A stretch of 64,000 nucleotides of DNA from Nitrospirales bacterium (GTDB taxonomy: Bacteria; Nitrospirota; Nitrospiria; Nitrospirales; UBA8639), in the NCBI GenBank assembly GCA_021604005.1, contig BQIV01000008.1:62001-126000 (forward strand). Direction: 5' to 3'. Below, one piece after another: positions 33,765-51,126 of this stretch. Position 1 is the stretch's first letter, and the number at the start of each line of letters is the position of its first letter. A model generated the notes under the pieces. The model was not told the DNA's origin, searched no databases, and saw nothing but the letters and a program-made list of their open reading frames with translations. The translations under genes were made by a program, and so were the position numbers.

Positions 33765-33831
33765 TTCAACATTCTACGTTTATATACTTATGCGTACATC
33801 CTACTATGTCCAAACTATTTTCGCACAGTTA

Positions 33832-34115
33832 AGACTCTAAAGACCGCATGTGTTGACATTTTTAATGAAACGGTTCACGATCTTTATCTAACCAAGGCCG
33901 GTCCGGGAGGGATTCGGCATGGAATCAGTTGTTCGACAAAAAAGAATCTCGAAAAAGCCCTTGGGATCGTATGTGCCCCAAGGGCTTTTGTGTTTTGTGG
34001 CTCCTTGTAGGATTTGCCACTGTGTGGGGGAAGCCACCTTATTATTAGTGCCGAAGACATAGAGTGAGAATGAGGCGAAAAAAGGAGAGAATTTCTAATG
34101 AATTTGATGGCGAAA
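33832..34115 (+). repeat. Module repeat R1, copy a
   Basis: About 280 bp similar to 45346-45622 in the same orientation. The conserved core runs from TTGACATTTTTAA through AAGGCCGGTCCGGGAGGGAT and GATTCGGCATGG to a strong terminator. Similarity fades in the GA-rich tail. Conservation around the hairpin and a TTGACA-like box suggest a transcribed small RNA or leader, but this is unproven. Each copy opens one module of the dockerin/PEP-CTERM region. Confidence 0.75.
33954..33996 (+). terminator. Intrinsic terminator in R1a
   Basis: GCCCTTGGG (33957-33965) pairs with CCCAAGGGC (33977-33985), with AAAA before and TTTTGTGTTTT after. Confidence 0.88.
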
Positions 34116-35984: not shown

Positions 35985-37721
35985 ATGAGCAAGACTGTCC
36001 AGTTTTTACTAATTTCTGTGGTCTTAACCTCTCCCATAGGAGTTTCATGGTCACATGGAGGGTATGCTCATGCCGCTATGGTAGGCGACATCGATGGTGA
36101 CAACGATGTAGATCGACTAGACCTAAGTTTGGTGCTTGCCGATCGCAATAAGTTGGTAAGCGAGAGTAGCTGTGGGATGGCCTGTGATCTTGACGGCGAC
36201 GGTCGGATCACGGTGTTGGACGCTCGCAGGTTGGTTGTGCTCTGCACCAACCCTCGGTGCGTCGAAAACGTCGTCGTGGAGATTCAGGTCAACAACACTT
36301 CCGGCGGAGACGATGATTATATCACTTGGAGTCCAAACTTTAGTCGGGCGCGAGTGATTGGGGCGACATCAGATGTCCAAGTCATTCTGAGCAATGAGCC
36401 GGGTGGAGGTGATGTGTATTTTGGAGCCTTCAGGGATCCGTGGCCACCTAATACCACAGCAACAGCCAACACGCTTAGCCTCACCCTCCCAGCAGATCAA
36501 CGTTGGATACCCTTCGTGATTGCTGGCCAAACAGCCAGTACCAATGACAAAGATGCGGTGATCAATGTAATGAGACAGAACCCCATCGTCCAAATGGTTG
36601 GCACCCACCGGCTGATGGTCCGGATTAGGAAAAACGCAAATACGCTTACGGTAGGTGAGCGGGATCGGTTCCTCAATGCGTTGAAAGCTTTGCGAAACAG
36701 TAATAGCGCGAACTACCTCAACTACCTCACGTTTGGTGAGTTGCATCGACTAGCGTCTACTGCTGGTAATGAGGCTCACGGTCAGCCCGCATTTCTTCCC
36801 TGGCATCGAGCCCTCATCCTACAAGTCGAACGAGCTCTTCAACAAATTGATCCAAGCGTTGCCCTGCACTATTGGGACTGGGATGCCGCGGCACCAAATA
36901 TCTTCACAAAAGACTTCATGGGTGCAGGAATCAAAAACCGTCCAAGACAAAACAGCGATCCCATAAGCTTACCGGAATTCTCCATGTTGAATCCCCTGCA
37001 CGGTTGGAACACAGATTTGGTGTTCGCTGGTGGTACGATCCAGCGAAGGCTCTTTGATCATACGACGAAGCCTCAGGCCGGCTTCTTCACGCCACTCAAC
37101 GATCCGACCCAGGCATCGCTGGTCGATGCGACTAACTATGGTCCGCGGGCTAACCCGTGTAGTTCGAACTTCAGCTGTGCAGTCGAGAGATTCTCGCACG
37201 ACCAAGGCCACGTATGGGCTTGTAACAACGGTCTACTGCGTTTTCCTTCAAGGGCAGCAGGTGATCCGCTGTTCTACCTGCTTCATTCGCAGGTCGATCG
37301 GCAATGGGCTTTCTGGCAACGAAAGTTTGCGCGCCATGGAGTTGGAGTTGGAGGAATCCTGATATTCCGAGCGCCACAAGATTATGATAACACCGGGAAC
37401 TGGGATGATCCGAAGAACGTGATGTTACCCCAAAATTGGCAAAAAGGCTCGTTCCTTGAGGATACGATGTGGCCATGGGATGGGGACACGGATGGACCTG
37501 GTGGGCGAGCCCAGCGACCCATCAACCAGGGTGGACCGGGCGCCAATGTACCCAACAGTGCACCCATGGTGCCACGCACAGCCTTCCCGCAATCACGAAT
37601 AGCCAACCTTTGGCCGCCTGTTCCAACCAAGGTCAAGGTACGAGACATGATCGACTATCTTGGGAAGTTCAGGCCGCAAGACGGTCTCGGGTATGCCTAC
37701 GACGATGTACCCTTTAACTGA
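35985..37721 (+). CDS. Secreted tyrosinase with N-terminal dockerin-like repeat
   Basis: 578 residues: signal peptide (1-31), then a dockerin-like pair of calcium loops at 34-92 (DIDGDNDVDRLDL and DLDGDGRITVLDARRL, 34 residues apart). A beta region follows, then a type-3 copper tyrosinase domain. CuA ligands are His254, His265 (EAHGQPAFLPWHR) and His274; CuB ligands are His405, His409 and His434. It should oxidise phenols to quinones outside the cell. The dockerin sits at the N-terminus, whereas its relatives in this region carry it at the C-terminus. It leads a run with two HEAT proteins and a Sco-like protein. Confidence 0.9.
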   Translation: MSKTVQFLLISVVLTSPIGVSWSHGGYAHAAMVGDIDGDNDVDRLDLSLVLADRNKLVSESSCGMACDLDGDGRITVLDARRLVVLCTNPRCVENVVVEIQVNNTSGGDDDYITWSPNFSRARVIGATSDVQVILSNEPGGGDVYFGAFRDPWPPNTTATANTLSLTLPADQRWIPFVIAGQTASTNDKDAVINVMRQNPIVQMVGTHRLMVRIRKNANTLTVGERDRFLNALKALRNSNSANYLNYLTFGELHRLASTAGNEAHGQPAFLPWHRALILQVERALQQIDPSVALHYWDWDAAAPNIFTKDFMGAGIKNRPRQNSDPISLPEFSMLNPLHGWNTDLVFAGGTIQRRLFDHTTKPQAGFFTPLNDPTQASLVDATNYGPRANPCSSNFSCAVERFSHDQGHVWACNNGLLRFPSRAAGDPLFYLLHSQVDRQWAFWQRKFARHGVGVGGILIFRAPQDYDNTGNWDDPKNVMLPQNWQKGSFLEDTMWPWDGDTDGPGGRAQRPINQGGPGANVPNSAPMVPRTAFPQSRIANLWPPVPTKVKVRDMIDYLGKFRPQDGLGYAYDDVPFN

Positions 37722-37754
37722 TAACTGAAAATTCCCGGAATGGGGGATTTCATC

Positions 37755-38828
37755 ATGACAAGAATTCACTCGGGCGTATGGTTAGGACTGTTATATAGCA
37801 TGGCAGTTGGCTTAAGCAGTGCTTCCCAACTGCATGTCGAGGGCGGGCCTTTGGATAACCTCGAGGTAGAAACTGTTCGAGAGATGCGACAAGAGGCGTT
37901 GCAACGGTTCCTTAATACGGAGCTGTCCCCACAACAGCGCCTGGAACATGTTCAGATGATTGGATCCGTCAGCAATAAGGATTTCGAATCTCTGCTGCGT
38001 ATAGCCTCGGATCCGAACGAAGAAGATGAGATCAGACTAGTCGCGGTGAAGAGGCATCCATTAACTCGACGACTCATCGATTTAGAGCTGTCGATCCTCG
38101 GAGATGCTAAGAACGGAGGGTCACAGCTCAACGCGAATCTGATTTCGGATCTCGCACTTCGGACCCGGCCCACGATTGATGCGGAAACGCGTCAACGTAT
38201 CCAAGCTGGAATCAAAACATTGCTCAACGATTCTCGCGACACGGTGCGTCTCAACGCGTTTCGCGCCCTGGTGCCTAGCAACGAACCGACGGCGCTTCAG
38301 CTTTTGGAGAATGGATTGGGAAATCCGGACGTCGCACCCGTGTCAACGACGGAAGCACTGGCGCTCCTTGATCGTGCAGGCTCGGTGAATCATCTCGACG
38401 TGATTCGCCCCTTCCTTAATAGCGAGGATCCAGAGGTCCTCCGCCTCGCGGTACAGGCCTTGGCAGTCGATCCGGTAAGCCGCCCCAAGATCGTGTTGTT
38501 GCTTCAGGATCAAAATACTCCGGAACCTATTCGCGTTGCGTCTTTGCGGCGGCTTAGTCGTGCGGATGACGATTTTGTGTCGTACGCACTAGAACTCTTT
38601 GAGAATGAAGACGAAAGCACAGAGATCCGAAGGCAAGTTACACGCGCAATCATCGGTCGCATGAATTACCAGAGTGTGAGTGCAGATGATCAAGTGCGAT
38701 TCGCGCAGGCCGTAGAACGGCTGAGCCCCGATATCGCACCGAGCGTTCTGGAAGGAAGCTCACCTGACCAGTTTATTGAGCATCTAAGATTGACGTTCCC
38801 CGCTATCAAGGAATATCTCGACCAATAA
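37755..38828 (+). CDS. Secreted HEAT-repeat protein 1
   Basis: 357 residues with a signal peptide (to about residue 25), then all-helical repeats (ALQLLENGLGNPDVAPVSTT; VLRLAVQALAVDP; PIRVASLRRLSRADDDF) typical of HEAT/armadillo scaffolds. ATG 37755 follows GGGGGA by 7 nt. It sits between tyrosinase and a second HEAT gene, so it may help fold, load or arrange the copper enzyme; no catalytic motif. Confidence 0.7.
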   Translation: MTRIHSGVWLGLLYSMAVGLSSASQLHVEGGPLDNLEVETVREMRQEALQRFLNTELSPQQRLEHVQMIGSVSNKDFESLLRIASDPNEEDEIRLVAVKRHPLTRRLIDLELSILGDAKNGGSQLNANLISDLALRTRPTIDAETRQRIQAGIKTLLNDSRDTVRLNAFRALVPSNEPTALQLLENGLGNPDVAPVSTTEALALLDRAGSVNHLDVIRPFLNSEDPEVLRLAVQALAVDPVSRPKIVLLLQDQNTPEPIRVASLRRLSRADDDFVSYALELFENEDESTEIRRQVTRAIIGRMNYQSVSADDQVRFAQAVERLSPDIAPSVLEGSSPDQFIEHLRLTFPAIKEYLDQ

Positions 38829-38839
38829 GAGGACTTTGT

Positions 38840-40531
38840 ATGTGGATGGCTAGGCCTTTCATGAGCTCCAAACGGTCCCGTGACTACACTCTGGTCGTCG
38901 TTTTGGCGACGACCCTCGGGGGGGTCGCGATTGTTTCCTATCCCACCCCGGTGGCGTCGGAAACGGGGGAGGTTCTTGAGCGAAGTCTGCGAAAACTGGC
39001 CGAGGCCAGAGACGATCCGTATCGTTGGCTTGCCATCCTTAAGGATCTCTCCCTGGAGCCAGCCCGAGGTGTTCCCGCCTACACGGGCCTCCTCAGTGAT
39101 GTGCGCGAGCCAGTGCGGCGTCACGCGCTCCGCGCCTTGCAGGCATACGGTATCGCAGCGAGGCCTGCGGCTCATACCATCGTTTCACTTCTTGATGACA
39201 TTAGCGTTTCACCGGAGACACAGGTTCTCGCCGTGAATACGCTGGAAACCATAAAACCCCAGCAATCGACCCTAATTCGCGCGCTCATCGACTATCTAGC
39301 AGCCTCTGATAGCAAGGCACATGTGATCGTGCGTGTCATTCCACTGCTCGTCTTGCTTAGACCCGAGGCGAGTGTATTAAAGGCTCAGATTCTCCCACTG
39401 CTTAGGCACGCGGATTTGGGGGTTCAATTCGCGGCGTTCCGAGCTCTAGGGGAGCTGGCGTCGACAGGTGACGACAACAGATTACTCACCGGGCCCAAGA
39501 CAGCGAACACTCTGTTAGAGGGCGGATACCGGTTGTTCATACAGATTCGACATGCCGGTGCCGAGTCGTCGAGTTGGTTGCCGGCACTGGTTCGACTCGT
39601 CCAGGAAGATGGGACCCCAGCATTCGTCAGAGTGGCAGCCATTGAAACTCTGGCACATATCGGTCGGATAGACGCGAGCGCAGCTCGAGCTCTCTTCAAC
39701 GCAGTGGGAGCAGTCGACGAATTCATTTCACAGAGTGCTACAGAGAATCTGTCGCATCTAGACATGGGGAGGCCCCATCTGCTGACAATCGCCAGTGAGG
39801 GGCTCCGCCATGATAATCCACGCGTAAGGCGTCAGGCTGCGGTTATCTTGAAAGCGATGGGCCCAAATGCCGCACCTGCGACAGAAGCGCTCTGTGCTGC
39901 GTTGAGACGTGCGAACGGGCAAACTGCATCGTTTCTGATTGCTGCCTATCTAGACGCTCTTCGGACTATCGGGCGAGCGGCAGACAGCGCGAGCGAGACG
40001 ATCTCAGATTTGTTGTCATATCGATCTGTGATCTACGCCGACCGCGACACGCTTGACGTTTTGCGAATGCGCGCGTATCTGCTCGTGGTCCTTTCGGACA
40101 TTGGGGCTCCAGAGTCGTCTTATCCATACATACTGGATGCGCTGGCCCACGTCGATGAACAGTTGCTTGCCTACGAGGCCGCGGCTGCAGCAAGAGTAGC
40201 AGGATCCATTGGCCCACGAGCGCGGCCCTTCGTACCCTACCTGCTTCGCGCACTGGGGAAGCGTACCGCCGAGGAAGAGTTTTCCCTAGAACGGTTCGAC
40301 CCAATTTTTCCGAGAGAAGAGGCTACTACGTTTCAAATCGAGGCGATCCGAGCGCTCGTTCAGATCCAACCGGTCGATGATCCGGACGTCATCCATGTCC
40401 TGACAAAGCTCTCGACCGCCTCTGCACCCTTTGCCCATCTCGATTCCCGCCTGTTTAGCGAAGCGCGACGTGCGCTTCAGATGTTTGCAGACCATGGGCA
40501 GGGAAAGACAGCCACGGGTCTTGCCAACTGA
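38840..40531 (+). CDS. Secreted HEAT-repeat protein 2
   Basis: 563 residues: a membrane anchor or signal peptide (about 17-38), then ten or more HEAT-like helical pairs (REPVRRHALRALQAYGIAAR; NPRVRRQAAVILKAMGPNAA). It begins 11 nt after the first HEAT gene and ends 13 nt before the Sco-like gene, so these form an operon. Met1, Met3 and Met8 are alternative starts. A scaffold in the cell envelope is likely. Confidence 0.72.
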   Translation: MWMARPFMSSKRSRDYTLVVVLATTLGGVAIVSYPTPVASETGEVLERSLRKLAEARDDPYRWLAILKDLSLEPARGVPAYTGLLSDVREPVRRHALRALQAYGIAARPAAHTIVSLLDDISVSPETQVLAVNTLETIKPQQSTLIRALIDYLAASDSKAHVIVRVIPLLVLLRPEASVLKAQILPLLRHADLGVQFAAFRALGELASTGDDNRLLTGPKTANTLLEGGYRLFIQIRHAGAESSSWLPALVRLVQEDGTPAFVRVAAIETLAHIGRIDASAARALFNAVGAVDEFISQSATENLSHLDMGRPHLLTIASEGLRHDNPRVRRQAAVILKAMGPNAAPATEALCAALRRANGQTASFLIAAYLDALRTIGRAADSASETISDLLSYRSVIYADRDTLDVLRMRAYLLVVLSDIGAPESSYPYILDALAHVDEQLLAYEAAAAARVAGSIGPRARPFVPYLLRALGKRTAEEEFSLERFDPIFPREEATTFQIEAIRALVQIQPVDDPDVIHVLTKLSTASAPFAHLDSRLFSEARRALQMFADHGQGKTATGLAN

Positions 40532-40544
40532 CGGAGGAGATTTG

Positions 40545-41225
40545 ATGAGGGTCACGGTTCAGATCAGCTGCTTTTGTCTCCTATCAGGGTTATGGTGCTT
40601 CTCGAGCGTGAGTGCCGAGGAGGGTCACGCACACAATGATGCGACGGCAACCGTTTCTCGTTTGTCGGCTGAGCCGATCCAGATTTTTCTGGCTTCGCCA
40701 TGGGTTTCTGTCCAGGATCGGACTCGTTTGCGGAGCCTCAGCATCGGCTATACCGACCAAGATGGCAACCGTGGGTCTCTCGAGGATCTAGTGGATAGAC
40801 CAATGGCCATCGTGTTTTTCTATTCGCGCTGTCCGAACACTTACAAGTGCAGTGCGGCTATCACCAAGTTCGCAAGCTTGCAGCGGGCAATGAACAGCGT
40901 CGGGGTCGAGCGAGACATTCGATTGCTTGCGATTACATACGAGCCGCAGTTTGACACACCAAGGCGAATCAAACGCTTTGTCACCAGTCGTGGACTCGTG
41001 ACTAATTCCACGACGATGGCCATACGTCTCAAGCCCAAGCAGCATGCGGCCTTTATCGAAGACTTGAAGCCGCCGGTCGCCTACAACGCGGACTGGGTCA
41101 CTGCCCATGGTATTGAATTGAATCTACTCGATAGCAAAGGTCGCTTTGTACGAAAATACGGAACAATACTCTGGGATAATGGCGATGTAGTGCAAGATTT
41201 TAAACGCTTGCTTGACGAAGGTTGA
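40545..41225 (+). CDS. Sco1/SenC-like copper chaperone, variant Cys spacing
   Basis: 226 residues with a signal peptide (to about 24) and a thioredoxin-fold SCO domain. The metal/redox pair is Cys96 and Cys102 (YSRCPNTYKCSA). The spacing is five residues rather than the classical three. The later RGLVTNSTTMAIRLKP and AHGIELNLLDSKGRFVRKYG regions match the family. SCO proteins load copper into cuproenzymes. Placement after tyrosinase suggests it matures that enzyme. GGAGGA at 40532-40537 precedes ATG 40545. Confidence 0.8.
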   Translation: MRVTVQISCFCLLSGLWCFSSVSAEEGHAHNDATATVSRLSAEPIQIFLASPWVSVQDRTRLRSLSIGYTDQDGNRGSLEDLVDRPMAIVFFYSRCPNTYKCSAAITKFASLQRAMNSVGVERDIRLLAITYEPQFDTPRRIKRFVTSRGLVTNSTTMAIRLKPKQHAAFIEDLKPPVAYNADWVTAHGIELNLLDSKGRFVRKYGTILWDNGDVVQDFKRLLDEG

Positions 41226-41383
41226 ACAATCCAAGGAGTGAAGAAGCCTCTCTTGCATTAGGTAGATAGAGACCAAGTCTTTCAGGATTGCTACCTAGGG
41301 TACCCCCGAGAACCTTGGCCGTTGGAATGTCAAGCTCGTAGCGTATGTGATCATGATCAGGCGTCACAGAAAATAACAGAATT

Positions 41384-41529
41384 ACAATAGGCACCCTTTC
41401 CTTCTCGCTCGGAATTCGCCGGCCATAGGGCCCGATGATCCCCGAGACCTTGATGATGATGGGACGATTACGGTTCGCGATGCCAGAAAACTAGTTCTCT
41501 TCAGTGACAAGGATAGTTGTGCGAGGTAA
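41384..41529 (+). pseudogene. Orphan dockerin fragment
   Basis: In one frame this short stretch encodes FLLARNSPAIGPDDPRDLDD followed by DGTITVRDARKLVLF and ends SCAR-stop. That closely follows the second half of the dockerin in the BNR protein (RNTPAVSGDPRDADGDG). There is no start or upstream domain, so it is the 3' remnant of a lost dockerin-bearing gene, immediately ahead of the cohesin-like gene. Confidence 0.7.
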
Positions 41530-41564
41530 TCCACACCACACAATCAGTCAACGGAGGTAGAAAA

Positions 41565-42224
41565 ATGAACACGAGTAAGAGATTGCTCAGCTTTGTGTTT
41601 AGCGTAGTGATGGTGTTCAGTGTCGGGCAAGCCCAGGCTGTAAGCCTAGATTTTAAAACGCCTGGGCAATCAGTCTTGGTCGGCGAGAGATTTACGGTAG
41701 ATCTGACGATTTCGGGCCTGGGGAATTTCACCGCTCCTTCACTCGGCGCTTTTGATCTGTTTGTAAGTTTTGAAAAGGACGTATTGAGATTTGTTGATGT
41801 GGGCTATGGGGATCCCATCCTTGGTGATCAGTTGGACATCTCTGGGTTCGGTGCGATTACTTCAACGACCGCCACGAATATCGTAAACCTGACCGGTTTC
41901 GTAAATCTTGCTGAGATCTCGCTAGACCCAGCGGCCATTCTGAACACCATGCAACCAGGAGCCTTCACGCTAGCACGATTGAGCTTTATTGCCGAGGAAA
42001 ATGGTCAATCCCCGTTTCGCATCGAAGGACCGGGGCCTCTTCCAGGTGTCCGGGCTTTGGGTGATTCTTTTGGCAACCAAGGTCCCCTTGAGCCGATCAC
42101 TACGCCGACGGGGCCGCGGTTTGTGAATGTGGTCCCTGAACCCGGCACGGTTCTGCTTTTTGGGTCAGGCCTTGCTGGCCTCTTAGGATGGCGGTGGAAA
42201 CGGTCGAGAATTGGCAAAGAGTGA
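41565..42224 (+). CDS. Cohesin-like domain protein with PEP-CTERM anchor, 1
   Basis: 219 residues. Signal peptide (1-25), then one domain (27-175) with the cohesin pattern: SVLVGERFTVDLTISGL, then LGAFDLFVSFEKDVLRFVDV. A classical PEP-CTERM signal ends the protein: VPEPG at 190-194, a hydrophobic segment, and WKRSR. It would be exported, then processed by exosortase. As a single cohesin-type module with a sorting signal it is a candidate anchor for the dockerin enzymes nearby. GGAGGT at 41553-41558 supports ATG 41565. Confidence 0.82.
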   Translation: MNTSKRLLSFVFSVVMVFSVGQAQAVSLDFKTPGQSVLVGERFTVDLTISGLGNFTAPSLGAFDLFVSFEKDVLRFVDVGYGDPILGDQLDISGFGAITSTTATNIVNLTGFVNLAEISLDPAAILNTMQPGAFTLARLSFIAEENGQSPFRIEGPGPLPGVRALGDSFGNQGPLEPITTPTGPRFVNVVPEPGTVLLFGSGLAGLLGWRWKRSRIGKE

Positions 42225-42325
42225 GATGCGCTCAAGGTACCTATGTACTGTTAACGGACCGTAAACTCTGTAAGAGTCGCAAGGATCTTTAGGTGCGGGA
42301 GGGCCAGGATGGTCCTAGATCTTGG

Positions 42326-42375
42326 AAGCGCAATCGGTGTCTCTCCCTCAAGGGGGATATTTGATTGCGCTTTTT
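42326..42375 (+). terminator. Intrinsic terminator after cohesin-like gene 1
   Basis: AAGCGCAATC and GATTGCGCTT form a perfect 10-bp stem enclosing a smaller TCCC/GGGGA hairpin, followed by TTTTT. Confidence 0.85.
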
Positions 42376-42539
42376 CATTGGGTGGTAGCTATAGCGATGG
42401 TGGATCGACAAAATCAAGACACGTGAGAAAGGCCTGCATCGCACCCCAAGGTATGTTCCCGGCTAAGGCCAAGAGTTCTTCCTGGAGAAGGACCGTTGAA
42501 AACACACTGTGCTGTCATAAACGTGAGCAAATAACAGCG

Positions 42540-42602
42540 ACCGGGACTAGTCAGGTGTTTGAGTGGACTGATGAAGCCGAGGAAAATGGCCAATCTCCGT
42601 AA
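42540..42602 (+). pseudogene. Fragment of a cohesin-like gene
   Basis: The end of this stretch (42580-42602) repeats 41991-42013, which encodes AEENGQSP in the intact gene, with only third-base changes, and then stops. The remaining ~200 bp on each side show no gene. It is probably a leftover of a duplicated cohesin-like gene. Confidence 0.45.
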
Positions 42603-42746
42603 ATTGCCCTCGCCCCTTTGGGGAAAACAGTTAGGGCGAAGAGACAAGCTCATTTGAAAGTTCAACCACTATAGTGCTCAGGATTAAAAAGAATATCGGT
42701 ATGGGGTGTTGAGCAAAAACCAACAATAGCAAGAGGAGAGATTCCT

Positions 42747-44912
42747 ATGTTGGGACAAAGACACATCAATCGTTCCGCTCTGGTTTCGGCTATCTTGGCC
42801 GTCCTCTTACCAGCATCTGGAGCCCTCGCGGAGTTCCTGGTTAATGACAGGACTACCGACACATTTCCGGTCATCACCCAGAGCGAGCCCACCGTGGCCG
42901 TTTTCAATAACCAGATCCTGGTGGGCTACAATGACTCCAGGTTCGGGTCCGGCTTCCAAAGAACCGGCTACTCACGTTCTACCGACGGTGGGGCAACCTG
43001 GTCCGAGGTAGGTATCGGCACGCTCCCTACGCAGCGTGGCAATTTCTGCATCTCTGGAGATGATCCCGTGATCGTGGCGGATCGGATTCGAGCGCTGGGC
43101 CAGACCGGCGTCTTCTACTACGCGGTCCTTGGCAAGGTCCCAGGGCCGGGAGGTTCATGCCCGATCGCCCCGGATTCGATTGTCAGCGTCTGGAAGACTA
43201 TTGACGGCGGCGTGACCTGGACGCCGGCCAACGCCAGCCCACTGGCTACCCCAACTGACGACCAGGACAAGGAGTGGATAGCGGTGGACACCCGTGCCTC
43301 CGGGACTGGGGCAGGGAATGTGTACGTCTGCTGGACGCGATTTGGTGGTGGGGGTGGCGTCCAGTTCTCGCGCTCCACCGACGGCGGCGCCACTTTCACG
43401 CAAATGCCAGCGAACCTCTCTTCAAACAATAACGGTCTGGGATGCGTAGTCGCGGTGAATCCGAAAAATGGCCAGGTCTATGTCGCCTGGCTGGACCTTA
43501 GCAGTCCCAACCAGATCCGGTTCCGTCGCTCGGATGACTTCGGCGTGACCTTTACACCGGAGAACCACATTGGTCCTCCCTTCATTGGTGGTGAGAATGG
43601 CAGCGCTTGCGGACGTCCTGTGTTTTTGGACAGCGACCCCGACCCTGAGGACCGCGCCATCCGCTCTCGGCCCTTCCCTAGCATGGCAGTCAATCCCACC
43701 AACGGCCACATCTACGTAGTCTGGCACAATGGTGGACTGCTGGGGGGGACCGGGGCCGACATTGCCTTTAGCCGCTCCACCGACGGCGGTGCAACCTGGA
43801 ACACGCCAACGCGCATCAACAGCATTACGACGGGCCAGCAGTTCTTCCCCTCAATCGCCGTCAACACCGACGGTGTCATGACGATCATGTACTATTCTAC
43901 CCAAAACAACTCGCCCCCTGATCGCCTGATCGACACCTTCATCGCGGTTTCCAGCGATGGCGGCATGACCTTTAGTGCCCCCACCCGAGTCACGGATGTC
44001 TCCTTCGACCGGCCGATCACTAACCCCAACTTCGATTCCGTTTTCGGCAGCGCCTGTTACATGGGCGACTATAACTCCATCACGGCGCCGGCGCCAGGGC
44101 TGGGGAACAGCGATTTTTTCATGGTTTGGGGCGACAACCGGAATGATGGCGATCCTTCCAGTCCTGGGGTCCAGCCAGATCCGGACGTTTTCTTTGAGAG
44201 GGTAGAGGTGGACTTCTTCCCGGACTCCCGTGCGCTGATAGGGATAGAGACCCCGTCCGGGTCGGACACCGTCATTCTTGCAGGGCCGACAACGATCATT
44301 GTTGACATCCTCACTATCGCGGATGCTGACGGTAATAGCCGGGAGCAGGTTAAGACCACGATGGTTCAGTTGGAGCTCACTGGTACCAGTACTCTACTAG
44401 GTCCCGTGATCCTCAGGCTCCGCGACCCTGCCAAGTCGCCCTTCCAGCGGTCGACAGGTGAAATCGAGGAGGAAATGGACGTCCAGGCGGGGCGGCTGGA
44501 CGTTCCGCCCTTTGATCCCGCTGGCGGAGCAGCGGATAGCTTCTTCGATGTGTTCTTCGAAATCGACGTTGCCGGACAGCTATTCCATAATGACGCTCCG
44601 CTTCGGTTAGAGACTATGATTAGGACTAAACCCCCTGCCGAGGGTGATTCATACACCAAGCCTGGGGGGATCACTGAGCTCCTTGACGAGAATGATGCCC
44701 CGACCCCGGTGAGCCTGGTTTCAGCTCGTCACTGGCCGGATCCTGTGGCTTCGCTTTGTGATATTGACGGTAATGGAGATGTCGACCAGACTGACATCCG
44801 TGCCATCTTTGAGTCGCGCAATACTCCAGCTGTTTCTGGTGACCCTCGTGATGCTGACGGTGATGGATTAATTACGGTGAAGGATGCCCGTATCTGTGTC
44901 TTGCTGCAATAG
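42747..44912 (+). CDS. Secreted BNR-propeller protein with C-terminal dockerin
   Basis: 721 residues: signal peptide (to ~28), a six-bladed propeller region with Asp-box repeats (SRSTDGGATW three times or more, RRSDDFGVTF, SSDGGMTF), a beta-sandwich region (about 500-660), and a dockerin-like pair at 671-721 (DIDGNGDVDQTDIRAI; DADGDGLITVKDAR). Sialidase catalytic residues are not obvious, so it may bind or cut an unknown glycan. GC is higher than in the flanks, suggesting transfer. Confidence 0.82.
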   Translation: MLGQRHINRSALVSAILAVLLPASGALAEFLVNDRTTDTFPVITQSEPTVAVFNNQILVGYNDSRFGSGFQRTGYSRSTDGGATWSEVGIGTLPTQRGNFCISGDDPVIVADRIRALGQTGVFYYAVLGKVPGPGGSCPIAPDSIVSVWKTIDGGVTWTPANASPLATPTDDQDKEWIAVDTRASGTGAGNVYVCWTRFGGGGGVQFSRSTDGGATFTQMPANLSSNNNGLGCVVAVNPKNGQVYVAWLDLSSPNQIRFRRSDDFGVTFTPENHIGPPFIGGENGSACGRPVFLDSDPDPEDRAIRSRPFPSMAVNPTNGHIYVVWHNGGLLGGTGADIAFSRSTDGGATWNTPTRINSITTGQQFFPSIAVNTDGVMTIMYYSTQNNSPPDRLIDTFIAVSSDGGMTFSAPTRVTDVSFDRPITNPNFDSVFGSACYMGDYNSITAPAPGLGNSDFFMVWGDNRNDGDPSSPGVQPDPDVFFERVEVDFFPDSRALIGIETPSGSDTVILAGPTTIIVDILTIADADGNSREQVKTTMVQLELTGTSTLLGPVILRLRDPAKSPFQRSTGEIEEEMDVQAGRLDVPPFDPAGGAADSFFDVFFEIDVAGQLFHNDAPLRLETMIRTKPPAEGDSYTKPGGITELLDENDAPTPVSLVSARHWPDPVASLCDIDGNGDVDQTDIRAIFESRNTPAVSGDPRDADGDGLITVKDARICVLLQ

Positions 44913-44954
44913 GAGACATTCTACTTTTTCGCACCATGTTAGATGACGCGAAGT

Positions 44955-45200
44955 CGATTCCTTGAGCTGCTCCCCGTGTACATGGGTTACACGGGGAGCA
45001 GCTTACATGTCTGCTGACGTCAGACGTCCACTGTTACGGATTTGATTGCCGACTTGACTTTCGCAGCCATATCAGGTGGGAGGTTCGACATGCGGTGTGC
45101 GATCTTTCCATGCTCGGAGGCGAGTCGCACACTTCCTCTTCCGTCTCAGCGCGTACTTCAAACGCACACCCGCAATTAGGATCGACCTCGAGAGCTCCAT
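44955..45200. repeat. Module repeat R2, copy a
   Basis: 246 bp matching 50881-51126 in the same orientation with about 75-80% identity. It opens with a strong hairpin and then carries decayed minus-strand coding sequence. The copies close the two halves of the dockerin/PEP-CTERM region. Confidence 0.78.
44965..45003. terminator. Hairpin (terminator-like) in R2a
   Basis: GCTGCTCCCCGTGTA (44966-44980) and TACACGGGGAGCAGC (44988-45002) form a perfect 15-bp stem with a 7-nt loop. It ends transcription of the BNR gene most likely, although no long T-run follows here. Confidence 0.7.
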
Positions 45201-45260
45201 CCAAAATGGAAAAGTTAGCTCTTCAACGTCCAGCGTCGGCTCAACGGCGAGCGCGTAGGC
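45020..45260 (-). pseudogene. Decayed gene in R2a, minus strand
   Basis: The minus strand keeps coding-like segments in shifting frames: DGALEVDPNCGCAFEVRAE, then LASEHGKIAHR, then MSNLPPDMAAKVKSAIKSV with TVDV-stop (45091-45020). The last segment differs from the R2b copy almost only at third codon positions, so it evolved as protein-coding sequence. No family recognised. Frame breaks indicate a pseudogene or very short overlapping genes. Confidence 0.5.
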
Positions 45261-45345
45261 GGGTGAATACGTGGAGGAGGTTGCGGGCGGAAAGCGAAGC
45301 GTATCCACTTGGATAACAGACTTTATCCACACTATTCCCTCCAAT
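45201..45345. other. Junction between module 1 and module 2
   Basis: 145 bp between R2a and R1b, locally GC-rich, with no second copy in the window and no gene. It is where the two modules join. Confidence 0.4.
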
Positions 45346-45622
45346 CAAAGACTCCAAAGACTGCATGGGTTGACATTTTTAACGAAACAGTTCACACTCA
45401 TTCCCTAGCCAAGGCCGGTCCGGGAGGGATTCGGCATGGGATCAGTTGTTCGACGAAGAAGAATCTCGAAAAAGCCCTTGGGGTCGTATGTGCCCCAAGG
45501 GCTTTTGTGTTTTGTGGCTCCTTGTGGAGTTTACACTGTGGAGGAGAGACAACCTGTGAGAACCGAAGGCATAGGAGAAGATGAGACGAAACAAAAAAGG
45601 GATTTCTATTGCACGTGATGGT
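45346..45622 (+). repeat. Module repeat R1, copy b
   Basis: Second copy of the repeat at 33832-34115, 11.5 kb downstream in the same orientation, preceding the multicopper oxidase gene. The block from AAGGCCGGTCCGGGAGGGAT to the terminator is nearly identical. Confidence 0.78.
45471..45513 (+). terminator. Intrinsic terminator in R1b
   Basis: GCCCTTGGGG (45474-45483) pairs with CCCCAAGGGC (45493-45502), followed by TTTTGTGTTTT. Confidence 0.88.
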
Positions 45623-45741
45623 GAACATATTTGGGTACCAGTGGGTTTATTCTCATGTGTCATATCAACCAATGACTCTATTTCTTGGCCATGCCCCCCT
45701 GTTCTCACCCTCCCCCAGTGCTCTACTTAAGAGGGAGAAAT

Positions 45742-47796
45742 ATGATGAAAAAGCGCTCTATTGTTTTCAATATTCTGGGTATGGTGATGGGAGTCCTCTT
45801 CGTGCAAGCTGCTCACGCGAGTCTGAGCCTGGTGTCCGCTACAGATGTCAATCCCGACCCGAATATCTTTGAAGCCTATCTTACGGCTGATGAACAGGAT
45901 GTGATGATCGATGGCACCACCGTGCATGCGCTGGTCTACCGCGATGATCCCCCTGGTGGTGGGGGCGCACCCGCAGGCATCCCTGCCCCCATGATCGTCG
46001 TGACCGTCGGTGACAAGCTCATTATTCATTTGAGAAACGAGCTCGACGGTATTTTTCAGGAGAACTTTCTCGTTAACGAAAAGACGAGCATTCACTGGCA
46101 CGGGATCGAGCTTGACAACAACAGCGACGGTACGGCGGTCACCCAAGATCAGCTTCGTCATGGTGATACCTACGTGTATCGATTCACCGTTACTCGTCCA
46201 GGCATTTTTTGGTATCACCCGCATATGAAGCCAACGGGCCAAGAATTCGCAGGCATGTACGGTGCCCTCATCGTCAAAGATTCCCGCGAGGATGACCTTG
46301 AAGAAAGGGGAAGGATCCCAAAGAACGTCCGTACCATCATCCTGAGTGATATTGAGTTCGTTGACAGGACGGATGTGCAACGTGACCCTCGCCTGGAATC
46401 TCACATCGGTGTTGTCGGATTTCAGGACGGGGGCGGGATAGGAAACTTTAAAACCGTGGACGCGATCGTCGAGTTCTGTGCAGAGGAACTCAGCCGTGGT
46501 GCCCTTATTGACCCCAATACAGGGTGTAGGATTCTTTCCGGTGATACGGTGTTGGTGAATGGGGGGGTGGTAAGAGCATCCACGCACACGATCGTCGCGA
46601 AATCCGGCGAAGGCATTCGGCTACGTCTGATTAATCCTTCCATTACGCGATATTTTCGACTGAAACTCGTTGGCAATACAGACACAAATGGCAATCCAGA
46701 CTCCAATTTGTATCGCATCGGCGGTGAAGGTGGCTTACTGGAAAGCGTGCGCTTAGAGGGCGGAGTGCTGGGTCGGTGGAATACTGGCTACGAGAAAGGC
46801 GAAGTCGTCTTGGCGCCCGCTGATCGGGCTGATGTTGTGTTGGTGCCTCGTGGAAAGAATGGAGACATAATTAAGATTGTCAGTTCATTTTTTGATCATA
46901 GGCCTAAACCTGGAGGGGGAGGTGCCACAGTAACAGAACCGTTCGATGTGTTATTTGTTGAGATTCAAGGAGTTGAGACTCCTGCATATAGCGTTGCCGA
47001 GGGTGACAAAGTTCTTGGTTCCGGAGCAATAGAGAACCTCAAGGCTCGCGTGATCACTCACCATTTCCAGCCAGTGCCAGCTGGTCAACCTGGGTCGATG
47101 GACGAAACCATCAGATTTACGACTCAAGACATTTTTACAAATATCCCCACGGAGGGCAAGGTCATAGGCCCAAGGATAGATACAATCCTTGGCCGTTTTG
47201 AAGACAGTGGTATTAATTTCACCGCGGTGGCTCATGCCGCGTCCACGCGCTATGCCGTCGCCGGAGAGGTCCTCGAGCTCACCATCAAAAACGAAACTCA
47301 GGCCCATCATCCATTCCATTTACATGGTGCGTCATTTCAGCCTGTGAAAATCTTAAACAATGCTGGAGCCACGCTGTTTACCTTCACACACAACGAATTT
47401 GTGGACAACTTTGATATCCATGATGGCCAGCAGCTTGTTTTTCGGGTCCGGTTTGATGATCGGGCCGTGATTTGTGATGATGTCATTTTCCCATATGCTT
47501 GCTCCAATTCAACGTCTAGAGGCGCGGCTGGCCGTTGGCTGTTTCACTGCCATATTTTTCATCACGCCGCATTGGGCATGATTTCCGAAGTAGTGGTGCT
47601 GACTCCCGACCTCAATGGTGATGGGTGTGTGGATCAACGTGATGTGAGTGTGGTGTTCGCCGATCGCAATAACGGGGTAGGCGACAGTAACTGTGGGGTG
47701 GCGTGTGATCTGGATGGCGACGGTCAGATTACGGTGTTGGACGCGCGTAGGCTGGTGACGCTCTTCACTAATCCTAGCGGGACGCCGTGTCGTTAA
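45742..47796 (+). CDS. Secreted multicopper oxidase with C-terminal dockerin
   Basis: 684 residues with a signal peptide (to about 28) and three cupredoxin domains. Copper ligands are all visible: HWHG at 118-121, WYHPH at 157-161, HHPFHLHG at 522-529 and HCHIFHH at 602-608. A dockerin-like pair follows at about 620-684 (DLNGDGCVDQRDVSVVF; DLDGDGQITVLDARRLV), nearly identical to the one in tyrosinase. It should oxidise phenols or metal ions with O2 outside the cell. Start ATG 45742 (or 45745) follows GAGGGAGAA. Confidence 0.92.
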   Translation: MMKKRSIVFNILGMVMGVLFVQAAHASLSLVSATDVNPDPNIFEAYLTADEQDVMIDGTTVHALVYRDDPPGGGGAPAGIPAPMIVVTVGDKLIIHLRNELDGIFQENFLVNEKTSIHWHGIELDNNSDGTAVTQDQLRHGDTYVYRFTVTRPGIFWYHPHMKPTGQEFAGMYGALIVKDSREDDLEERGRIPKNVRTIILSDIEFVDRTDVQRDPRLESHIGVVGFQDGGGIGNFKTVDAIVEFCAEELSRGALIDPNTGCRILSGDTVLVNGGVVRASTHTIVAKSGEGIRLRLINPSITRYFRLKLVGNTDTNGNPDSNLYRIGGEGGLLESVRLEGGVLGRWNTGYEKGEVVLAPADRADVVLVPRGKNGDIIKIVSSFFDHRPKPGGGGATVTEPFDVLFVEIQGVETPAYSVAEGDKVLGSGAIENLKARVITHHFQPVPAGQPGSMDETIRFTTQDIFTNIPTEGKVIGPRIDTILGRFEDSGINFTAVAHAASTRYAVAGEVLELTIKNETQAHHPFHLHGASFQPVKILNNAGATLFTFTHNEFVDNFDIHDGQQLVFRVRFDDRAVICDDVIFPYACSNSTSRGAAGRWLFHCHIFHHAALGMISEVVVLTPDLNGDGCVDQRDVSVVFADRNNGVGDSNCGVACDLDGDGQITVLDARRLVTLFTNPSGTPCR

Positions 47797-47910
47797 AGCA
47801 TAGAGATAAATATTAAAAGCTCAGTCCAACACCATGTTACGGAATCCAGCACTCGAGACTAGGTGTGACTAATCGTAGCTACATAGACAATCACTTACAG
47901 GAGGTAAAAA

Positions 47911-48564
47911 ATGAAAACGACTTGTTCAGCTGTTCTTGCGGTCTCGCTGCTTTGTCTTATGCCCCTTACTTCCCAAGCGATTGAATTTAGCTTTCGCCCG
48001 ACACCTCAAGTGGCGGATGTCGGAGAGTTAGTAGAGGTGCAGCTTAGGATCGAGGGTCTGGCCGGTACTTCCCTAGGTACCTTTGATCTGCTTGTTGGGT
48101 TTAATCCGAGTATCCTACGTTTTGCTGGCGTCACGTTTGGTGACTCCGACTTTAACTTCAACGATCAACTTGCGTGTCCTGGGCTCCCAAGCACGTGTAC
48201 TTTCTTTGGTAGTTTGACCAGTTCCACAGGGCAGACGTCCCCCTTAGATTCCAACATCAACCTATTCGAGGTTTCATTTGCACCCGTTCCACCCCTTGCA
48301 CCTGTAGACGTCCTCGCCACCATGCAGGCGGCCGCCTTTAATATCGGGACATTGTCCTTTGAAGGGCTATCCGTTGGCAATAGCCCGTTGCAACTAGGCG
48401 TCATTGCATTGGGTGATTCCATGGGAAATCCACTACTGACTTCCACCATAAGCCCAGGCAGAATCTTGGTTGGAGAACAGGTTCCTGTGCCGTCAAGTCT
48501 TCCATTACTTCTCCTCGGCTTGGCGGTGCTGGCTGGTGTCGTCAGAAAAACATCGTTACGGTAG
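47911..48564 (+). CDS. Cohesin-like domain protein with PEP-CTERM-type anchor, 2
   Basis: 217 residues: signal peptide (1-23), a cohesin-type domain (25-170; VADVGELVEVQLRIEGL, LGTFDLLVGFNPSILRFAGV) and a C-terminal sorting signal with VPVPSSLP at 191-198, a hydrophobic stretch and a basic end. This VPxP form is a known variant of PEP-CTERM. It follows the dockerin multicopper oxidase and precedes exosortase, repeating the enzyme-cohesin order of module 1. AGGAGG precedes ATG 47911. Confidence 0.82.
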   Translation: MKTTCSAVLAVSLLCLMPLTSQAIEFSFRPTPQVADVGELVEVQLRIEGLAGTSLGTFDLLVGFNPSILRFAGVTFGDSDFNFNDQLACPGLPSTCTFFGSLTSSTGQTSPLDSNINLFEVSFAPVPPLAPVDVLATMQAAAFNIGTLSFEGLSVGNSPLQLGVIALGDSMGNPLLTSTISPGRILVGEQVPVPSSLPLLLLGLAVLAGVVRKTSLR

Positions 48565-48648
48565 ATCTCTGATGAAAGTCCGTGGTGCTCTCTATTCACT
48601 GCAATCTGGTTTCTGGCACCCTTGGAACGATTCACGAGTTTATGTAGC

Positions 48649-50328
48649 ATGTGTGAAGCCAAGCCCAATTTCACCTACGCAGTGACTCAAACCGGCCAGG
48701 GCTCTCACTTGGCAGGTTTGAGTGCCACAGATAATAGCCATCGTAAGCGTCTCTCAATCATCCGCAATGATGACCCTTTAACACGTTCTCTATGGAAGAG
48801 AGCGGGACTGCTCATGGCTGCGGCCTGGGTTGTTGTTGTATTCCTCTTCTGGGACACGGCAACGTCAATGGTGCACGTCTGGTCCAACTCCGACACCTTT
48901 GCCCATGGGTTCGTGATTTTGCCGATCAGCCTGTATTTAATGTGGGCCCGTCGGCATCGAATTACGGCGGTTCGACCAAGCCCTAATCTGTGGGGATTGT
49001 TGCTGCTCGTGGGCTTGAGCGTTGGGTGGTTCCTGGGCGAGTTAATGAATGTGCGGGTCGTCCAGCAGTTTGCCGTCGTGGGTATGTTGCCTGGGCTAGT
49101 CTGGACGGTGTTAGGGACAGGTGTCTTGCGTGCCCTAATTTTTCCGTTGGCCTTTCTTGTGTTTGCGGTGCCCATGGGCGATGAGCTAGTGTCGCCACTT
49201 CAAGATTTCACGGCGTACTTTACGGTTACCGCGTTGCAGCTTTCTGGGATTCCGGTCTTTTGGGAAGGTCGCTTTTTTACCATCCCCACTGGGACGTGGC
49301 ACGTGGCTGAAGCCTGTGCGGGCGTGCGGTACGTCATTCCATCAGTCACCTTGGGATTTCTGTTTGCTGGGGCGGTGTACCAGAGCTGGTTTCGGCGTTG
49401 CACCTTCGTGCTGGTCTCTTTTTTCGTGCCCATTCTGGCGAATGGGTTCAGAGCGTTTGGCTCGGTTCTGCTGGCTCATCTGACCAACAACACCTTCGGC
49501 AAAGGCGTGGAGCATTTCATTTCAGGATGGCTGGGGTTTGGTGTGGTGATGTTCGTGGTCTTCTGGCTGGGTCTAAAGTGGCGTGACACGGCCGATGCAG
49601 CCTCGGGCAAGCGTGGTCACTCAGCTCCCCCCTCTGCGGAGGCCGGCACCGCGGAGGAGAAGACGAGACGCGGCTCTGTGCCCTCCCTTACCCGCCTGGG
49701 GCCGATGGCGATCGGCGGGGTCTTGCTGCTGGCCCTGGCGCCGCTCTCGGTGAAGGCTCTCTCGCACCAACCGGTGGTGTCGGTTGCGCTCAATCCAACA
49801 GCCCCATCGGTGTTGTTGCCCTGGGAAGCTGTGGCGCAGTATGTCGGTAATTGGGTCCCTCAGTTTCGTGGGGCTGATGCGGAGCTGACCCACAGTTATC
49901 GTCACGATGCGCAGCAAGTACACCTCTATTTGGCGTACTATGCTAATTCCCGACAAGGTGCCGAGTTAATTAGCCGAATGAATTTACTAGTCGATGGAGA
50001 ACGCTGGGCCTTGTTGACCGAAAGAGATCGAGAAGTGGTGGTCGATGGCCGTTCGCTCCACGTGCATGAAAGCCACATACGCGCCGCGCAGCGAACCCGC
50101 GTGGTGTGGAGTTGGTATTGGGTCGCAGGGGAGTTTACGTCAAATCCGTACGTGGCCAAACTACTTCAGGCGAAAGCTCGCCTATTTGGAGAAGCGTACG
50201 GTAGTGGTAGTGCGGTGATGGCTCTGGGTACGGATTACGATGGTCAACCCGATGACGCGATCAACATCTTACAGGACTTTCTGCAGCATACGTCGCTCGA
50301 TACACACCTCATTAGCTACTCAAAATGA
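48649..50328 (+). CDS. xrtA: Exosortase A fused to EpsI domain
   Basis: About 559 residues. The N-terminal part has eight or so membrane helices with the exosortase triad: Cys223 (AEACAGVRY), Arg268 (NGFRAFG) and His289 (EHFISGW). The C-terminal 200 residues are a soluble EpsI (DUF3485) domain. Exosortases are thought to cut PEP-CTERM signals and pass the protein to the cell surface. Fusion with EpsI is known for XrtA. The start is uncertain (ATG 48649; TTG 48622 also possible). It lies right after a PEP-CTERM cohesin gene rather than in the usual polysaccharide cluster. Confidence 0.92.
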   Translation: MCEAKPNFTYAVTQTGQGSHLAGLSATDNSHRKRLSIIRNDDPLTRSLWKRAGLLMAAAWVVVVFLFWDTATSMVHVWSNSDTFAHGFVILPISLYLMWARRHRITAVRPSPNLWGLLLLVGLSVGWFLGELMNVRVVQQFAVVGMLPGLVWTVLGTGVLRALIFPLAFLVFAVPMGDELVSPLQDFTAYFTVTALQLSGIPVFWEGRFFTIPTGTWHVAEACAGVRYVIPSVTLGFLFAGAVYQSWFRRCTFVLVSFFVPILANGFRAFGSVLLAHLTNNTFGKGVEHFISGWLGFGVVMFVVFWLGLKWRDTADAASGKRGHSAPPSAEAGTAEEKTRRGSVPSLTRLGPMAIGGVLLLALAPLSVKALSHQPVVSVALNPTAPSVLLPWEAVAQYVGNWVPQFRGADAELTHSYRHDAQQVHLYLAYYANSRQGAELISRMNLLVDGERWALLTERDREVVVDGRSLHVHESHIRAAQRTRVVWSWYWVAGEFTSNPYVAKLLQAKARLFGEAYGSGSAVMALGTDYDGQPDDAINILQDFLQHTSLDTHLISYSK

Positions 50329-50880: not shown

Positions 50881-51126
50881 CAATTCCTTGACCTGCTCTC
50901 CGTGTACGTCAGAGACACGGGGAGTTTTGCCAACGTTTCTGCTGACGTCAGATGGTCATCGTTACAGATTTGATCGCCGACTTAACCTTTGCTGCCACAT
51001 CAGGTGGGAGGTTCGACATCTGATGTGCGACTGTTCTATGTTTGAGGCGAGTCGTAGGATTCCTCTTCGGGCTCAGCACTTTCCTCAAATGCACACCCGC
51101 TATTGGGATCGACCTCTAGACACCCC
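50881..51126. repeat. Module repeat R2, copy b
   Basis: Second copy of the repeat at 44955-45200. It includes a terminator hairpin (CTCTCCGTGT / ACACGGGGAG, then TTTT, 50896-50928). On the minus strand at 51019-50948 it keeps MSNLPPDVAAKVKSAIKSV with TMTI-stop. Confidence 0.78.
50896..50928 (+). terminator. Intrinsic terminator in R2b
   Basis: CTCTCCGTGT (50896-50905) pairs with ACACGGGGAG (50915-50924), one wobble pair, followed by TTTT. Confidence 0.75.

Follow-up and report, generated by a model that had tools for sequence, protein, structure and literature searches.

The locus studied here raises the question of why a Nitrospirales bacterium carries dockerin-like modules on two secreted copper enzymes and a propeller protein, and what these modules would bind to. 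The preliminary description of the window (the whole 64,000-nucleotide stretch of DNA that was analysed) had proposed a small cellulosome-like assembly dedicated to copper oxidases. Our analysis points instead to a two-component surface-display module, deduced from sequence and given a probability of roughly 0.8, in which a PEP-CTERM protein with a single cohesin would hold a dockerin-tagged cargo protein.

Organization of the gene run

All genes concerned lie on the plus strand between positions 35985 and 50328, in a host genome of 4.7 Mb. They encode a tyrosinase, two secreted HEAT-repeat proteins, a SCO1/SenC-type protein, a first anchor protein, a BNR propeller protein, a multicopper oxidase, a second anchor protein and an exosortase A with an EpsI domain. 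The secreted tyrosinase (35985-37721; Pfam Tyrosinase, 103 bits) bears its dockerin at the mature N-terminus and is followed by the HEAT-repeat proteins (37740-38828, matching HEAT_2, and 38840-40531, a HEAT/Arm-repeat protein by Pfam). The next gene (40545-41225; PF02630, 39.4 bits) encodes the secreted SCO1/SenC-type protein, a possible copper chaperone that had been overlooked in the preliminary description.

The PEP-CTERM anchors

Anchor protein 1 is encoded at 41565-42224 and anchor protein 2 at 47911-48564, 114 nt 3' of the oxidase gene. Both possess a signal peptide (recognized by eye) and a C-terminal PEP motif followed by a hydrophobic helix and a basic end. The Pfam model PF07589 (cut-off 20.7) matched the sorting signal of anchor 1 (42132-42203) with 31.8 bits and the PEP-CTERM/VPLPA-like signal of anchor 2 (48478-48546) with 21.6 bits.

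With the Pfam cohesin model the two anchors reached 12.8 and 19.0 bits, both under the cut-off of 24.1, so that the cohesin call made previously went beyond standard annotation. A family member from Aliiglaciecola exceeded this cut-off (24.6 bits). Used as the sole query, protein P0009 yielded neither relatives in genome contigs nor a PDB match by phmmer, and family alignments were needed. The broad alignment A2, intended for the pattern search, was dropped as too diverse, and long lists of P0005 matches obtained through PEP-CTERM alone were discarded as mere signal matches. A profile built from nine family members had cellulosomal cohesins as its best PDB matches (E 2.3e-5).

The check proposed in the preliminary description, a comparison of structure models of both proteins with cohesins, was carried out. 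For the AlphaFold2 model of anchor 1, which was of moderate confidence (pLDDT 67), every one of the 50 best PDB matches in Foldseek was a cohesin or a cohesin-like module (best E 1.9e-6), and VIA gave a cohesin as the best match, with a Z of 12.1 and an rmsd of 3.1 over 131 residues. Anchor 2 was folded within a dockerin-linker-cohesin chain read through the stop codons of the oxidase gene, a computing device and not a natural protein, in which AlphaFold2 folded both domains well. The 50 Foldseek matches listed for this chain likewise belonged without exception to these two kinds (best E 8.8e-10), as did the 50 PDB entries listed by VIA, where the best match of anchor 2, a cohesin, had a Z of 14.9 with an rmsd of 2.0 over 133 residues. 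The models thus indicate that both small PEP-CTERM proteins are cohesins, with the jelly-roll fold; family profile, structure models and Pfam PEP-CTERM matches agree with the earlier view that each consists of one cohesin-type domain and a sorting signal. In the host genome, the cohesin profile found only these two PEP-CTERM single-cohesin proteins and no multi-cohesin scaffoldin.

The exosortase gene (48622-50328) begins 57 nt past anchor 2, directly 3' of it, and its product was identified as exosortase A (XrtA) by TIGR03109 (321.6 bits, cut-off 208), the EpsI domain by TIGR02914 (118.7 bits). The enzyme does not look dedicated to the cohesin anchors: PEP-CTERM matches in this genome number at least 23, and another contig encodes a second exosortase. 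Exosortase A probably acts on these 23 or more proteins.

The dockerins of the cargo proteins

Tandem calcium-loop/helix (F-hand) repeats were detected above the Pfam threshold in the tyrosinase and in the oxidase. PF00404 (Dockerin_1, cut-off 22.9) matched residues 34-83 of the tyrosinase with 27.8 bits (module at 36078-36260) and residues 642-690 of the oxidase, in the numbering of the open reading frame from 45685, with 25.1 bits (module at 47602-47778). The secreted BNR/Asp-box propeller protein (42747-44912; BNR_2, 36.8 bits) gave no match in the Pfam dockerin search, and its C-terminal dockerin (residues 670-720; 44754-44906) was recognized only by a specific profile made solely from dockerins of other species. 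It scored 66.4 bits, compared with at most 6.8 bits in 200 shuffles. With this profile all three dockerins reached 54 to 66 bits, the shuffled controls at most about 7. The loop pairs ascribed to the three secreted proteins were thereby recovered, in the BNR protein through a purpose-built profile.

The modules belong to a distinct class, termed class A, with the conserved pattern 'DGDVDRND...DPRDxNGDGxITxxDARxxVxLCTxPRC'. The BNR dockerin is truncated ('...DARICVLLQ*') and has no 'CTxPxC' end, which is present in relatives. The dockerins of tyrosinase and oxidase share 77% identity over 169 nt of DNA and 64% identity in protein. This DNA identity, which had escaped notice before, suggests copying of the tag from one gene to the other, and one cohesin could serve both tags because they are so close. 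Just upstream of the anchor 1 gene, at 41404-41529, a search of the genome with the dockerin profile A4 revealed a decayed half-dockerin within a 50-codon frame ('ARNSPAIGPDDPRDLDDDGTITVRDARKLVLF'; E 1.2e-9), a pseudogene tail corresponding to the C-terminus of a class A dockerin and likewise missed previously. The dockerin proteins found in the host genome are the tyrosinase, the multicopper oxidase, the BNR propeller and a PKD-like protein.

The copper enzymes

Across both copper sites the tyrosinase aligned with hemocyanins and tyrosinases. The secreted oxidase (45742-47796; Cu-oxidase_3 and Cu-oxidase_2) has a C-terminal dockerin. The ATG at 45742 is its most probable start codon, which corrects the start of the open reading frame at 45685; the protein contains the four copper-ligand motifs HWHG, HPH, HPFHLHG and HCHIFHHAALGM. 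Both enzymes have thus retained the expected copper-ligand motifs.

Homologues of the copper enzymes were dockerin-free. In another Nitrospirales genome (G122), a tyrosinase with 57% identity carries hemopexin repeats in place of the dockerin and adjoins a homologue of the HEAT-repeat protein at 37740-38828. A further tyrosinase (in genome G137) adjoins a HEAT/SCO protein, the latter a homologue of the SCO1/SenC-type protein. Homologues of the oxidase either stop where the dockerin begins here or have FG-GAP repeats at that place. By sequence comparison, a cluster of tyrosinase, HEAT and SCO genes and an oxidase without dockerin are the commoner state; the dockerin on both copper enzymes therefore looks like a module that was added later.

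Recurrence of the cohesin-dockerin gene pair

Homologues of the anchors were picked from other genomes regardless of their neighbours, and the surroundings were scanned afterwards. At 13 other loci (L069, L070/L082, L071/L084, L073/L083, L075, L077, L085/L097, L086, L099, L100, L101, L102 and L106) a single-cohesin PEP-CTERM gene was located within 6 kb of a dockerin gene, often adjoining it. The hosts are Nitrospirota of several genera (including those of the first seven loci and of L099) and an unrelated marine gammaproteobacterium, Aliiglaciecola (L086). The pairs occur in either gene order, the shortest gaps between paired genes on the same strand being 22-45 nt. Among ten cohesin proteins of the paired type, PEP-CTERM was found above the Pfam cut-off in six and weakly in three, and the protein of Aliiglaciecola gave no match.

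Cohesin and dockerin types also correspond. Divergent class B cohesins adjoin class B dockerins at L100, L101 and L102, a third cohesin type adjoins a third dockerin type at L106, and in genome G093 one contig has a class A pair and another a class B pair. The host genome itself has a single additional dockerin locus, on contig 4; the sequence immediately upstream is the tail of a PEP-CTERM cohesin, recognized through its intact relative at L100. At two loci with a cohesin-PEP gene (L076 and L098) no dockerin was found in the scanned surroundings; at L103 the dockerin lay about 10 kb away, and L072 was cut by a contig end. Four candidates (L078 to L081) were rejected as cohesin loci, the cohesin profile giving no match.

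The cargo differs between loci and comprises PKD, RCC1, PASTA, propeller and RHS proteins as well as BNR together with a metalloprotease. Because of this variation, the gene neighbourhoods argue for a general two-gene display module and not for a copper-specific cellulosome. The specificity for copper oxidases that had been claimed was not borne out, neither by the pairs of relatives nor by their tyrosinases and oxidases. Nor does the term cellulosome-like fit anchors with one cohesin each in a genome without a detected multi-cohesin scaffoldin. That tyrosinase, oxidase, propeller and SCO protein constitute one dedicated assembly for the oxidation of phenols or metals, for the sake of which the cohesins exist, is accordingly unlikely, even though the copper-ligand motifs are kept in both enzymes, a SCO1/SenC protein resides in the run and the two dockerins are so similar in DNA: the combination was absent from every other surveyed genome, homologous anchors go with other cargo, homologous copper enzymes have no dockerins, and the single cohesin per anchor does not fit such a complex.

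Is the pairing more than chance?

Linkage was assessed with Pfam dockerin matches and cohesin-profile matches of single-domain size in the same 197 Nitrospirales genomes; Pfam dockerins were used, and the A4 profile was left out, because its seeds had been drawn from loci beside cohesins. Five of 19 dockerin loci had a cohesin-PEP gene no more than 3 kb away, compared with 0.026 expected (P 4e-11, loci treated as independent). When the genome studied here was excluded, four of 17 remained (P about 4e-9, again with loci treated as independent). The distance matrices of cohesins and dockerins from 14 pairs were correlated (r 0.60, p 5e-5), as were those of the class A pairs alone (r 0.49, p 0.004), shared ancestry contributing to both values. 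Shared ancestry partly explains this correlation, but it does not alone account for the two pair classes of G093, which has them on different contigs. Judged by these counts, the neighbourhood of cohesin and dockerin genes is more than chance.

The figures bear on a second explanation, according to which the calcium loops are mere folding or stability elements, the PEP-CTERM proteins with a cohesin fold are unrelated to them, and the neighbourhood reflects chance or the clustering of genes for secreted proteins. Calcium repeats resembling dockerins are indeed common in secreted proteins, and in the 197 genomes 14 of the 19 Pfam dockerin loci had no cohesin-PEP gene within 3 kb. Yet the pairing recurs above chance, the cargo and the order of the two genes varying, and divergent types match inside a single genome, which makes this explanation quite improbable. 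Finally, it is most improbable that the dockerins bind another cohesin, such as the cohesin-like domain that secretins of many Nitrospirota have at the C-terminus, and serve as a tag for secretion rather than anchoring. Proteins of about 800 aa that combine secretin and cohesin are widespread in the order, but the host genome's only cohesin-profile matches are the two PEP-CTERM cohesins, and it is PEP-CTERM cohesins that take part in the gene pairing.

A model of surface display

The display module that we favour builds on what the computation shows, namely domain identities, folds, sorting signals and cohesin and dockerin genes that repeatedly occur as pairs of matching type. What we infer is that cohesin and dockerin bind, that this depends on calcium, that an exosortase processes the anchor, that the anchor resides at the surface and that the enzymes are active. 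The anchor, made up of one cohesin and a PEP-CTERM signal, would be secreted and processed by an exosortase; the outer surface or the exopolysaccharide would then retain it. There its cohesin would capture, with the help of calcium, the dockerin of a cargo protein that is secreted separately and encoded nearby. As each anchor has one cohesin, one cargo protein would be held per anchor, and display is probably one-to-one, without a scaffoldin. The bacterium studied here would have grafted the dockerin onto the N-terminus of its tyrosinase and the C-terminus of its multicopper oxidase; the BNR propeller carries one as well.

With some reserve, we incline to a broader view, namely that this is a widely shared natural form of display in outer-membrane bacteria. 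Single cohesins sorted by exosortase would keep exchangeable dockerin-tagged proteins in the exopolysaccharide; in the present case these would be copper enzymes that oxidize phenols or metals outside the cell. Part of the PEP-CTERM repertoire, and non-cellulosomal dockerins with it, would thereby gain a concrete function.

Comparison with known systems

Cellulosomes have single-cohesin surface anchors, OlpA and OlpC of Clostridium thermocellum with SLH and ScaE of Ruminococcus flavefaciens with a sortase signal. The structures 3ul4, 4dh2 and 2zf9 of this group are among the Foldseek matches. These anchors resemble the proteins described here in combining a single cohesin with a surface-attachment signal and in receiving cargo with a dockerin. 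The cellulosomal anchors, however, belong to Gram-positive bacteria, their cargo consists of glycoside hydrolases and scaffoldins occur alongside, whereas the Nitrospirales module relies on PEP-CTERM and exosortase in a bacterium with an outer membrane, and a scaffoldin was not found. In place of the multi-cohesin scaffoldin of a cellulosome, this genome yielded two single-cohesin proteins, and glycoside hydrolases are not among its dockerin proteins.

Non-cellulosomal modules are represented by structure 2xdh from Archaeoglobus fulgidus. For archaeal cohesins and dockerins outside cellulose degradation, a part in attaching proteins to the cell surface has been proposed, both in ANME (PMC5244752, PMC9012536) and in A. 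fulgidus, and the pair of the latter binds and has been used for display (PMC9705933). Cohesin and dockerin likewise occur there without cellulose degradation, but these systems are archaeal, ANME also have multi-cohesin proteins, and the papers do not describe a PEP-CTERM single-cohesin anchor beside its own cargo gene. What cohesins and dockerins do outside cellulosomes has been described as unknown (PMC5244752). Gene pairs of matched type and varied cargo would provide a role, the PEP-CTERM cohesins being docking points for secreted proteins.

According to a proposal made for PEP-CTERM proteins (Haft et al. 2006, PMC1569441), an EpsH-type exosortase processes them after export, and the exopolysaccharide or the outer surface retains them. 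Our system likewise comprises a signal peptide, a PEP-CTERM signal and an EpsH-type exosortase in an organism with an outer membrane. Little homology links PEP-CTERM proteins to known ones, however; a function is known for few of them, and the paper mentions neither cohesin nor dockerin (PMC1569441). Among the papers searched, a set that includes a minor part of the subscription literature, none combines PEP-CTERM with cohesin or with dockerin; as evidence of novelty this is weak. Pairs of cohesin and dockerin are already known, as are surface cohesins; the literature searched did not contain the version with PEP-CTERM, exosortase and natural copper-oxidase cargo.

A further parallel is man-made. 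In the engineered electrosome, a dockerin-tagged copper oxidase is attached to a cohesin on the surface of yeast (PMC5535219). It shares with the present locus a copper oxidase with a dockerin on a surface cohesin, but relies on yeast display and a scaffoldin. The Nitrospirales module appears to be its natural counterpart. If this is true, engineered cohesin-dockerin display of oxidases would have a natural equivalent, and the gene pairs would supply new orthogonal cohesin-dockerin pairs of small soluble domains for use in outer-membrane bacteria.

Two dispersed repeats were found in the window. The copies of the first repeat (213 nt; positions 33803-34015 and 45320-45532), which harbors a strong terminator-like hairpin, are 86% identical and lie 11517 nt apart, nearly the same spacing as that of the two dockerin copies of the tyrosinase and the multicopper oxidase (11521 nt). 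Both copies of the second repeat (108 nt, 81% identity; 45005-45112 and 50933-51040) are intergenic and reside within the cluster.

Contig 4 of the same genome contains the tail of a cohesin-PEP pseudogene (L068, 7266-7529) upstream of a gene for a dockerin-PKD-like protein. The intact counterpart of this pair is present at the class B locus L100 of another genome. At two other class B loci, L101 (9295-17213) and L102 (6749-15547), genes for dockerin proteins of more than 2000 aa are located directly downstream of the cohesin-PEP genes. Since Pfam disclosed RHS repeats in the long dockerin protein of L101, its sequence suggests that dockerin cargo can also include RHS proteins.

The loci L094 and L095 and more than 30 other Nitrospirota genomes encode secretin-like proteins, about 800 aa in length, that end in a cohesin-like domain at the C-terminus. 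The cohesin-like domain on such proteins is thus widespread in Nitrospirota.

Four Nitrospirales tyrosinases (L110, L111, L112 and L117) do not carry dockerins, and two of their genes are adjoined by a HEAT or HEAT/SCO gene. Tyrosinase together with this neighbor may possibly constitute a copper-enzyme cluster in its own right.
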